Below, in pieces: positions 1-2,090 of a DNA stretch of 46,220 nt. The notes beneath the pieces were generated by a model that was given only the letters and a program-made list of their open reading frames with translations, was not told where the DNA came from and searched no databases. The first letter of the stretch is position 1. Every line of letters begins with the position of its first letter. This stretch comes from a bacterium (lineage in GTDB: Bacteria; Chloroflexota; Chloroflexia; Chloroflexales; Kallotenuaceae), in contig JADDQF010000049.1 of NCBI GenBank assembly GCA_016781505.1, positions 1 through 46,220 on the forward strand, written 5' to 3'. The position numbers were made by a program, and so were the translations under genes.

Positions 1-872
1 TCGGCATTGTTGCCAGTTCCGTCGCCGTCCGTATCGACCCACTCTGTGCTGTCTACAGGACGGGCGTCCTTGGCATCGTCAACGCCATCGCCGTCGGTAT
101 CGAGAAGGAGGGGATCGGTTATACCTAGAAATTCAGCACCGTCAGTGAGGCTATCTCCGTCAGTATCTGGGTTGAGCGGATTCGTTCCTTGCTCGAGCTC
201 CTCAATGTTGGTCAATCCATCCTTATCGGGATCGCCTAGTGCGCCGTCGGTACCCGTTGCGACTTGGGTATTGAAACCGTACTGCGTTTCCCAATCGTCT
301 GGAAGGCCATCTTTATCCTGATCGTTCCCGTACATTAATGCAACAACCGCGTCGATTTTGTACTCGATGTCGATAGGTGAGAACCGAACATAGCGATACG
401 CTCTCTTGTACTGGTTGAAATCGAAGGGAACCTTGACGATGTTTGCCGCAGAGCGACGGCCTCTGATTTGGAAATCCGCGCTGGTAATATCCCGTCCCTG
501 CTCGTCCACAAAGGTTACAGTTACCTTCGCGGATGTGTTGGAGCGGTGGTAGTGGACCACCAAAGTACCGGTCCCTGCCTCATCTGCACCCATGTCGAGA
601 ACGAGACTCGCATCCTTGGGATCGATGACTTTTGAAGCTTGTGGAACAACGGCGTACTGCCGGTCTGGAGCACCAAGTGCGTTGACCGCAGCGGCATGGT
701 TTACAGCCGCGCCAGTGCTGGGTGCGACCGCGTCTGCATACGGGTCGGAAGGAGTGGTCGCGAAGGCTGGCCATGAAACAAGGGTTAAAGCAAGCAGGGA
801 AAGAATTGATACACGGCCAAAACGATTGCGCGACACGGACAAGCTTGAACGACTAAAGAAAGAATTGGACAT
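1..872 (-). CDS. Secreted protein with thrombospondin type 3 (calcium-binding) repeats, 3' end outside window
   Basis: About 290 residues are visible and the frame is still open at base 1, so the protein is partial. The start is the ATG at 870-872, preceded by an AGGAGG ribosome site about 5 nt away. Residues 1-38 form a signal peptide: a basic, serine-rich start (MSNSFFSRSS), a hydrophobic core (ILSLLALTLV), then SWPAFA. Residues 45-185 look like a beta-rich extracellular domain that I do not recognise. From about residue 190 come Asp-rich repeats (DQDKDGLPDDWE, DPDKDGLTN, DTDGDSLTDG, DTDGDGVDD), the calcium-binding TSP type 3 pattern. Such repeats commonly occur in adhesion and matrix proteins. 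The leader carries two c-di-GMP aptamers, which fits a surface or biofilm role. The gene looks less GC-rich than its neighbours, possibly from transfer. The precise function is unknown. Confidence 0.85.
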   Translation of the reverse strand, partial: MSNSFFSRSSLSVSRNRFGRVSILSLLALTLVSWPAFATTPSDPYADAVAPSTGAAVNHAAAVNALGAPDRQYAVVPQASKVIDPKDASLVLDMGADEAGTGTLVVHYHRSNTSAKVTVTFVDEQGRDITSADFQIRGRRSAANIVKVPFDFNQYKRAYRYVRFSPIDIEYKIDAVVALMYGNDQDKDGLPDDWETQYGFNTQVATGTDGALGDPDKDGLTNIEELEQGTNPLNPDTDGDSLTDGAEFLGITDPLLLDTDGDGVDDAKDARPVDSTEWVDTDGDGTGNNA

Positions 873-916
873 GAAAACCTCCTGAAACGTTTGAGACGTT
901 CGCGTCGAGGAAGCTT

Positions 917-1010
917 TCACACAGGGTGGCCCGGCGACCATGGCAAACTTGCTGTAGGCCCGTGGCTTTGCGTCACCGCCTTTCGACGGCTTTGCCTTTG
1001 TCAAGCGTGA
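917..1010 (-). ncRNA. GEMM-I cyclic-di-GMP riboswitch, proximal copy
   Basis: Read on the minus strand the segment has the GEMM-I layout: a closing stem (UCACGC with GUGUGA at 1005-1010 and 917-922), the AAAGGCAAAGCC entry, a first hairpin closed by a CGAAAGG loop, the signature GACGCAAAGCCACGGG, a second variable hairpin, and a CGCCGGG exit. The base corresponding to G20 of the Vc2 aptamer is G. In this family G there favours c-di-GMP, whereas A marks cGAMP-type members. It ends about 45 nt before the start codon. A CCUC run (907-910) and a small AACGU/ACGUU hairpin lie between it and the AGGAGG ribosome site, so control of translation is possible; that part is inference. Confidence 0.9.
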
Positions 1011-1045
1011 GCTCTAAGTTGATGTCTACGGTGTAAAACCTGTTG

Positions 1046-1077
1046 AAACAAAAACCTGGCTCGTTACGAGCCAGGTT
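1046..1077 (-). terminator. Intrinsic terminator between the two riboswitches
   Basis: On the minus strand an 11-bp perfect stem (AACCTGGCTCG / CGAGCCAGGTT, 1053-1063 with 1067-1077) with a TAA loop is followed by TTTTGTTT. It lies after the distal aptamer and before the proximal one. Its 5' arm can instead pair with the exit strand of the distal aptamer (1071-1079 with 1103-1111, nine pairs including one G-U), so it looks like the expression platform of the distal riboswitch. Confidence 0.88.
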
Positions 1078-1093
1078 GCGGAATCCCAAGGGT

Positions 1094-1188
1094 TTGGATT
1101 CGGCAACCCGGCGATCCAGATCTGCAGTACCTGGACCCGTGGCTTTGCGTCCCCACCTTACGATGGGTTTGCCTTTTCGGTATCTCAA
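1094..1188 (-). ncRNA. GEMM-I cyclic-di-GMP riboswitch, distal copy
   Basis: This is a second aptamer with the same elements: AAAAGGCAAACCC, a hairpin with an AUCGUAAGGU loop, GGGACGCAAAGCCACGGG, a variable hairpin (CCAG/CUGG) and the CGCCGGG exit. A short closing stem can form between UUG-A-GAU (1182-1188) and AUCCAA (1094-1099). The G20-equivalent is G, as in the proximal copy. The exit strand CCGGGUUGC (1103-1111) is complementary to the 5' arm of the terminator that follows. Ligand binding should hold that strand and let the terminator form, so the predicted sense is OFF at high c-di-GMP. The aptamer call is strong; the switching sense is inference. Confidence 0.88.
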
Positions 1189-1499: not shown

Positions 1500-2090
1500 T
1501 TAGGGTGAGTTGGAAGCGTCGTCGAGCTGCCGCACAACCCGCGCAGGATTGCCGGCGACAACCACATCAGCGGGCACGTCACGGGTAACGACCGCCCTAA
1601 ACCCGACCACGGAATTAGCGCCGATGGTTACGCCCTTAAGGACAACCGTCTGTCCGGCGAGCCAAACATTATCACCGATGCTGATAGGGGCGCTCAGGAC
1701 GGGAGCATGAGGATTGGTTGCCCGGTCGCGACGCAGGCTATGAAAGTCGGTATCGACCAGCAAGGTCGAGCCGAGGATACAGTGATCGCCAATGGTGATG
1801 CCGCGCTTCGCCATCAATCCGACGCCATTCAGCCGCACATGCGAGCCGATGCGAATCGTAACATCCGGGCTGAAGGTAATGATGACATTGCGCTCTTCGT
1901 GGGCCCAGGCATTAACGTCGGCGCCAAAGACAACCCGCCCCGGCCCGCGGATGACCAGCTTACGGTTGGCTTGAAAGCCTGGGCCAAACTGCACCCGATC
2001 CCCGCGCAGCAGGCGATACTTCACCATCACATACTGCGTCAGTATGCGAACGACCGCCCATTTCGCAATAGCCTTAAGCCCTTGGATCAT
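1500..2090 (-). CDS. Left-handed beta-helix (hexapeptide repeat) acyltransferase
   Basis: The 196-residue protein consists mostly of hexapeptide repeats in the form [LIV]-G-x4 (for example ITIGDHCILGSTLL and PISIGDNVWLAGQTV). It ends with the typical VTRDVPADVVVAGNPARVVR of the WcaF/maltose acetyltransferase-like group. The His in TDFHS (around residue 118) is the expected catalytic base. Such enzymes move an acetyl or other acyl group from acyl-CoA (or ACP) to a sugar hydroxyl or amine, usually in surface polysaccharide synthesis; the acceptor here cannot be told. The first 35 residues are basic and partly hydrophobic. The gene starts 24 nt after the methyltransferase stop and probably shares its transcript, although no functional link is evident. 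Confidence 0.85.
   Translation of the reverse strand: MIQGLKAIAKWAVVRILTQYVMVKYRLLRGDRVQFGPGFQANRKLVIRGPGRVVFGADVNAWAHEERNVIITFSPDVTIRIGSHVRLNGVGLMAKRGITIGDHCILGSTLLVDTDFHSLRRDRATNPHAPVLSAPISIGDNVWLAGQTVVLKGVTIGANSVVGFRAVVTRDVPADVVVAGNPARVVRQLDDASNSP

Follow-up and report, generated by a model that had tools for sequence, protein, structure and literature searches.

A tandem c-di-GMP-I leader predicted to combine opposed transcriptional and translational outputs upstream of a gene for a putative exported TSP3-repeat protein

Results

Organization of the locus and identity of the aptamers

The DNA analysed here, hereafter the window, is a stretch of 46,220 nucleotides from a bacterium of the family Kallotenuaceae (Chloroflexota; assembly GCA_016781505.1, contig JADDQF010000049.1), and the features under study lie close to its first base, all of them on the minus strand (Table 1). 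An open reading frame for an exported protein with bacterial thrombospondin type 3 (TSP3)-like repeats begins 50 nt downstream of the second of two aptamers arranged in series, and is incomplete, as the window begins at base 1 of the contig. A search of the whole window with Infernal and Rfam 15 at the gathering threshold returned exactly two matches, both corresponding to c-di-GMP-I (GEMM-I) and both on the minus strand. Aptamer 1, the first in the RNA, was reported under RF03167 (c-di-GMP-I-GGC) and was also matched by RF01051 (c-di-GMP-I) at 1183-1099, with 72.8 bits against a cut-off of 35, and aptamer 2 was reported under RF01051; by full-model score, both are therefore members of RF01051. 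The original prediction had placed two complete GEMM-I aptamers in one leader at 917-1188, an interval that spans both aptamers and the P1 flank and was given with no strand; the covariance scan agrees with it, both copies being above threshold with 71-73 bits each (cut-offs of 35 and 59).

Table 1. Features of the leader and of the downstream gene, in window coordinates.
Feature	Position	Strand	Basis or remark
Aptamer 1, c-di-GMP-I (GEMM-I), first in RNA	1098..1182	-	RF03167, 71.0 bits, cut-off 59, E 6e-15
Aptamer 1 P3 3' strand GCCGGGUUGC, also antiterminator 5' strand	1103..1112	-	10 contiguous pairs with 1079-1070
Antiterminator inner hairpin GAAUCC...GGAUUC, between aptamer 1 and terminator	1081..1101	-	in free and bound folds
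Terminator 5' arm region GCAACCUGGCUCG, common to antiterminator	1079-1067	-	1079-1070 pairs with 1112-1103
Intrinsic terminator hairpin	1053..1077	-	11 bp, 7 G-C; two both-sided compensatory changes in G302
Terminator U-tract UUUUUGUUU	1046..1054	-	sequence
P1 5' strand of aptamer 2, UCACGC	1005..1010	-	register kept in G302
Aptamer 2, c-di-GMP-I (GEMM-I), second in RNA	922..1006	-	RF01051, 71.9 bits, cut-off 35, E 2.9e-12
P1 3' strand of aptamer 2, GUGUGA	917..922	-	last three bases are the base of the RBS-burying stem
Anti-SD strand UGAAAGCUUCCU	908..919	-	pairs with 883-872; conservation and folding
SD AGGAGG (883-878) through AUG (872-870), stem-buried	870..883	-	sequence and folding
ORF, exported bacterial TSP3-repeat protein, cut by contig start, 290 aa remain	3..872	-	translation; family match of the truncated frame below cut-off

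The binding pockets were compared at nucleotides 20, 47 and 92, numbered as in Vc2. Aptamer 1 has G, A and C at these positions, and G20, A47 and C92 also occur in aptamer 2, where they were located by eye within GGC, GACGCAAAGCC and ACC; the equivalent of G20 anticipated for both copies is thus present. P2 carries a GNRA loop in each case, GUAA in aptamer 1 and GAAA in aptamer 2. Both pockets are of the c-di-GMP type, pointing to c-di-GMP as the ligand, and the identical pocket bases suggest that the two aptamers answer to the same molecule. Regarding the RF03167 label, we presume from the consensus and the name of this family that it is defined by a G at the A47 position; in an alignment to the RF03167 consensus this G is absent from aptamer 1, which displays the canonical A, and aptamer 1 is, as judged by its sequence, an ordinary c-di-GMP-I aptamer with a nominal label. 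The canonical A47 also rules out taking this label as the sign of a different ligand, and the sensing of cGAMP by the leader was rejected given the G20 in both aptamers. A consensus search returned no sigma-70 promoter.

Downstream gene and conservation in a second genome

A signal-peptide-like stretch was identified at the N-terminus of the window's open reading frame, which reached 21.4 bits with TSP3_bac (PF18884; cut-off 25), a value below the cut-off because the frame runs off the contig. Its complete ortholog in a genome of the same genus (G302; JADDQE010000099.1, isolate LB3_2) scored 29.9 bits, with 5 stretches, consistent with the exported TSP3-type protein that had been proposed downstream of the aptamers. 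The nearest named proteins are myxobacterial TSP3 proteins of cohesion and gliding, all far below the cut-off, and the second-best named relative belongs to Kouleothrix aurantiaca, whose homolog showed no riboswitch match; this relationship probably places the genome in the class Chloroflexia of Chloroflexota. A role of the protein in surface attachment, as originally suggested, is a guess.

The G302 locus (L057) constitutes a syntenic copy of the leader, with an acyltransferase, a DNA methyltransferase and uvrA upstream in the same gene order as in the window; the leaders are 80% identical, and the TSP3 proteins 53-56%. A genome scan with the TSP3 protein found no orthologous tandem leader other than that of G302, and tandems of the window type are known from two genomes only. 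Below the TSP3 gene of G302 (L057:7022-8632), a CpaF/TadA-type pilus ATPase is encoded on the same strand (L057:5479-7022), and the reach of the riboswitches may extend to pilus genes. The complete protein ends in ...SPIYLPIISR, with no LPXTG-type signal, which may represent a clade-specific sorting tail. The window's genome (G000) harbors eight c-di-GMP-I aptamers and about nine GGDEF domains, making it likely that c-di-GMP is produced.

Aptamer 1 is followed by a terminator and a competing antiterminator

All folding was carried out with a nearest-neighbour model that has no terms for ligand, magnesium, pseudoknots or kinetics, and the energies and probabilities given below are to be read accordingly. 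One strong terminator lies between the aptamers; the bare terminator pattern was not rarer than in shuffled sequences, so the case for the first platform rests on pairing and conservation. The hairpin stands 24 nt past aptamer 1 and uses none of its bases. Ten contiguous bases of its 5' arm region, GCAACCUGGC (1079-1070), can pair with GCCGGGUUGC (1112-1103), the P3 3' strand of the aptamer, and the inner hairpin GAAUCC/GGAUUC prolongs the resulting antiterminator helix; in G302 this hairpin is still formed with another inner sequence. Compared with the window, G302 displays GGCUGC for GGUUGC in the aptamer strand, GCAGCC for GCAACC in the 5' arm and AGGCU for AGGUU in the 3' arm. A T-to-C change in the aptamer strand is thus accompanied by A-to-G in the 5' arm and by a corresponding change in the 3' arm, so that the three strands covary. 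Elsewhere in the terminator, a G-C pair of the window is C-G in G302.

When the RNA was folded only as far as the terminator 5' arm, the antiterminator had a probability of 1.00, and forcing the aptamer cost 12.5 kcal/mol in the window and 11.1 kcal/mol in G302, a cost matched by none of 100 shuffles of the downstream part in either leader. Once the terminator 3' arm is made, the two states lie within 1.4 (window) and 0.5 kcal/mol (G302) of each other, and in the leader folded as far as the U-tract, the ligand-free equilibrium already favours the terminator (0.61 and 0.83, respectively); hence, switching by aptamer 1 must be kinetic. An intrinsic terminator competing with an antiterminator, as defines the first platform of a tandem with two mechanisms, was therefore found, and platform 1 is predicted to be a transcriptional OFF switch with Cd1-like wiring.

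The pairing between the aptamer 3' strand and the terminator 5' arm was further assessed by swapping partners among 15 aptamer-terminator loci of the phylum. Own-locus pairing averaged -19.0 kcal/mol versus -16.2 kcal/mol for swapped partners (-18.9 and -16.1 kcal/mol, respectively, when the comparison was repeated), and none of 20,000 swaps reached the own-locus value; with one locus per group, a single swap in 20,000 did so. Within the window's class the result was modest, with 228 of 20,000 swaps as good, and within family f13 this number rose to 1681 of 20,000, a weak result attributable to the near-identity of the f13 sequences; two loci of the window's own genome (G000:C148 and C115) fail the test. 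The pairing signal of platform 1 is real and arises mainly from differences between groups, being weak among close relatives.

P1 of aptamer 2 shares bases with a stem that buries the ribosome-binding site

No terminator was found after aptamer 2. Instead, UGAAAGCUUCCU (919-908) pairs with AGGAGGUUUUCA (883-872), which buries the SD together with the A of the AUG, and the unpaired probability of the SD in the free ensemble was 0.00. In G302, 11 of the 12 bases of the anti-SD strand and the entire SD-AUG strand are kept, with a diverged intervening loop, and P1 of aptamer 2 holds the same register, one G-U pair of the window being G-C. The P1 3' strand ends in three bases with which the anti-SD strand begins, so that both helices draw on them. 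This P1/RBS overlap was also identified in G301, a genome of the same genus in which a single aptamer precedes an S8 protease; there, the P1 3' strand is CGUG, and the stem base GUG pairs with CAU.

Opening the SD and AUG cost 12.4 (window), 15.1 (G302) and 11.8 kcal/mol (G301) without P1, and 6.4, 6.2 and 6.8 kcal/mol, respectively, with P1 formed. Shuffled platforms required about 6 kcal/mol in either P1 state, and the P1-dependent shift was reproduced by none of 200 shuffles in each of the three leaders. P1 is thus predicted to return the ribosome site to the level of ordinary RNA, which corresponds to the wiring of an ON switch, and a second platform acting on ribosome access with no terminator, as a tandem with two mechanisms calls for, is found by prediction. 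The ON effect could nevertheless be small, given that 9 pairs remain over the SD with P1 formed. When the aptamer was fixed at P2 and P3 without P1 (two runs), no gain in SD access was obtained in the window, which fits P1 as the switching element. An extended P1 pairing with the anti-SD strand, possible in the window, was dropped as it is not conserved in G302.

Discussion

Proposed mechanism

The computations establish the two aptamers and their pocket bases, the alternative pairing at each of them, the conservation of these features in G302 and the controls; from these we infer the ligand, the polarity in vivo and the dynamics. Taking the folding results together, we propose with middling confidence that this is a tandem c-di-GMP-I leader with two mechanisms and opposed outputs, in which aptamer 1 would turn transcription OFF and aptamer 2 would turn translation ON. 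Aptamer 1 would decide during transcription: with no ligand, its P3 3' strand (1112-1103) would capture the terminator 5' arm (1079-1070), allowing RNA polymerase to read through, and with c-di-GMP bound, the aptamer would keep this strand, the terminator would form and transcription would stop. Aptamer 2 would work on the finished mRNA: with no ligand, its P1 3' strand would join the stem burying the SD and AUG, and with c-di-GMP, P1 would form, the RBS stem would lose its base and the ribosome site would open. Low c-di-GMP would then correspond to mRNA that is present and poorly translated, and high c-di-GMP to little mRNA that is well translated. The decision of aptamer 1 would be taken once, during synthesis, and that of aptamer 2 would be reversible. 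At steady state, expression would be highest at intermediate c-di-GMP, provided that the sensitivities of the two aptamers permit this; after a rise in c-di-GMP, mRNA already stored would be translated in a burst, with new synthesis shut off. More tentatively, and with somewhat less than even confidence, the leader may constitute an all-RNA incoherent feed-forward loop built from two copies of one aptamer class, with transcription repressed and translation activated, giving a pulse or a middle band of expression.

Alternative readings

The original prediction had pictured a sharper or a two-input response. A sharper response would arise if both aptamers were OFF or both ON, the pair merely steepening the output. 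This is the accepted reading of the 347 doublets and 12 triplets that make c-di-GMP-I the commonest tandem riboswitch in one survey (PMC9481103), an all-ON triple array has been measured (PMC4759541), and single leaders of the same genome and family are predicted to exert translational OFF control through an extended P1 that includes the SD. However, the platforms are wired differently here, an aptamer strand taking the terminator 5' arm in one and a P1 strand entering the RBS stem in the other, and none of the folds obtained for aptamer 2 showed deeper burial of the SD upon P1 formation; with opposite predicted polarities, the sharper same-direction response is not borne out by the predictions, and we regard a coherent pair as rather unlikely. 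It is likewise unlikely, and slightly more so in our estimate, that aptamer 1 alone regulates, with aptamer 2 binding its ligand and the RBS stem either remaining closed or relying on another opener, such as a protein, a helicase or coupled translation. In every predicted ensemble the SD is largely paired, a 9-bp core persists with P1, and Bc1 of Bacillus thuringiensis provides a precedent, as it binds c-di-GMP and hardly alters expression (PMC11218506); nevertheless, the overlap of P1 with the RBS stem recurs in three leaders, and the opening cost drops to the shuffled background once P1 forms.

That aptamer 1 is an ON switch, with an apparent antiterminator that goes unused and a ligand that prevents termination, appears very improbable: the terminator uses no aptamer bases at its distance of 24 nt, and it faces competition from the P3 3' strand, an arrangement shared with the OFF switch Cd1. 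In favour of an ON switch, the tandem c-di-GMP-I terminators characterised in Bacillus Bc3-5 act in the ON direction (PMC4759541), and locus L084, from the window's genus, has an ON layout with the terminator 5' arm formed by the 3' strand of the aptamer. The two-input part of the expected response stands as far as two sensors are present, with no sign of a second ligand. A true two-input gate, in which one of the aptamers senses 3',3'-cGAMP, is brought to mind by f13 tandems of the same phylum (G080, G160 and G224) whose first aptamer carries A20 and whose second carries G20, but G20 occupies both aptamers of the window and of its G302 ortholog, leaving this reading with scarcely any weight.

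Comparison with known systems

A terminator after the first unit is typical of tandem c-di-GMP-I riboswitches (PMC12452182), and the window shares with the Bc3-5 tandem of Bacillus thuringiensis both this terminator and an aptamer class repeated in series (PMC4759541). Bc3-5, however, comprises three like-directed ON terminators, whereas the window's platforms differ in level and in predicted direction. In the SAM-II/SAM-V tandem, as in the window, the first riboswitch acts on an intrinsic terminator and the second on the ribosome site in response to one ligand, but both are predicted to be OFF and belong to different aptamer classes, in contrast to c-di-GMP-I used twice with opposed predicted polarity; SAM provides the only same-ligand entries with two mechanisms in the survey table, whose authors state that not all tandems were evaluated on this point (PMC9481103). 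Bc1 resembles the window in having been described as an incoherent dual regulator of transcription and translation; it has one aptamer, a long platform and two terminators, and is largely unresponsive in vivo (PMC11218506), unlike the window with its two aptamers, each with its own platform. Each principle has a precedent in a single riboswitch: in the OFF switch Cd1 of Clostridioides difficile, the antiterminator forms between the corresponding aptamer strand and the 5' arm of the terminator, and in Vc2 of Vibrio cholerae, control is translational and P1 is the switching element, as proposed for aptamer 2 (PMC9262584). The window would join in one leader what these two organisms keep apart. 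Among open-licence papers, we found no description of two c-di-GMP-I riboswitches of opposite polarity in one leader.

Same-ligand tandems are explained as sharper switches, and an opposed tandem acting at two levels would represent a pulse or band-pass element made of RNA, providing a second, testable reason for the finding, in one survey, that c-di-GMP-I occurs in tandem more often than any other class. The opposed output would further suggest that the secreted TSP3 protein is wanted in the transition between free and attached life, and at neither end state.

Other c-di-GMP-I leaders in the genome, genus and phylum

Additional arrangements were observed beyond the window. In seven genomes of family f13 (L066-L072), three contiguous c-di-GMP-I aptamers with a period of ~85 nt lie upstream of ruvB and are followed by a strong terminator (e.g., 1799-2057, minus strand, in L068); in 7 of 7, a separate TATAAT precedes the ruvB ATG by a few nt and the middle aptamer carries A20. 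This arrangement resembles either an independent aptamer-array RNA of ~330 nt or an attenuated leader. The f13 tandems with A20 followed by G20, mentioned above (L062 in G080, L065 in G160 and L059 in G224), belong to sortase-like genes and are a possible two-ligand gate for cGAMP and c-di-GMP. An SD sequestration switched by aptamer 2 was considered for the f13 tandems and rejected, since forcing the aptamer changed nothing, and we assign no polarity to these leaders.

Single-aptamer leaders of exported proteins were found in the window's own genome (L001, G000:C27; L004, G000:C149) and in G304 (L040, G304:C128). In these, a P1 extension (CUCC) would pair directly with the SD, leading to a predicted translational OFF control, opposite to that of aptamer 2 in the window; given the resemblance of the C27 and C149 leaders to translational OFF switches, ON control is not a rule of the family. 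Locus L084 (G302:C99:4186-4272) shares with L080, L083 and G000:C37 an unusual P2, GGGCAACU followed by a GCGAAAGC loop. A second tandem of the window's genome (L073; G000:C148:43438-43707, plus strand) precedes an S8 serine protease; the second aptamer of this tandem scores weakly (35 bits), carries an additional hairpin between P2 and P3 and has a G replacing A47. Another S8 protease follows a single aptamer with a terminator and strong antiterminator pairing (L085; G346:C229:1273-1357), and proteases recur behind c-di-GMP-I aptamers in this class.
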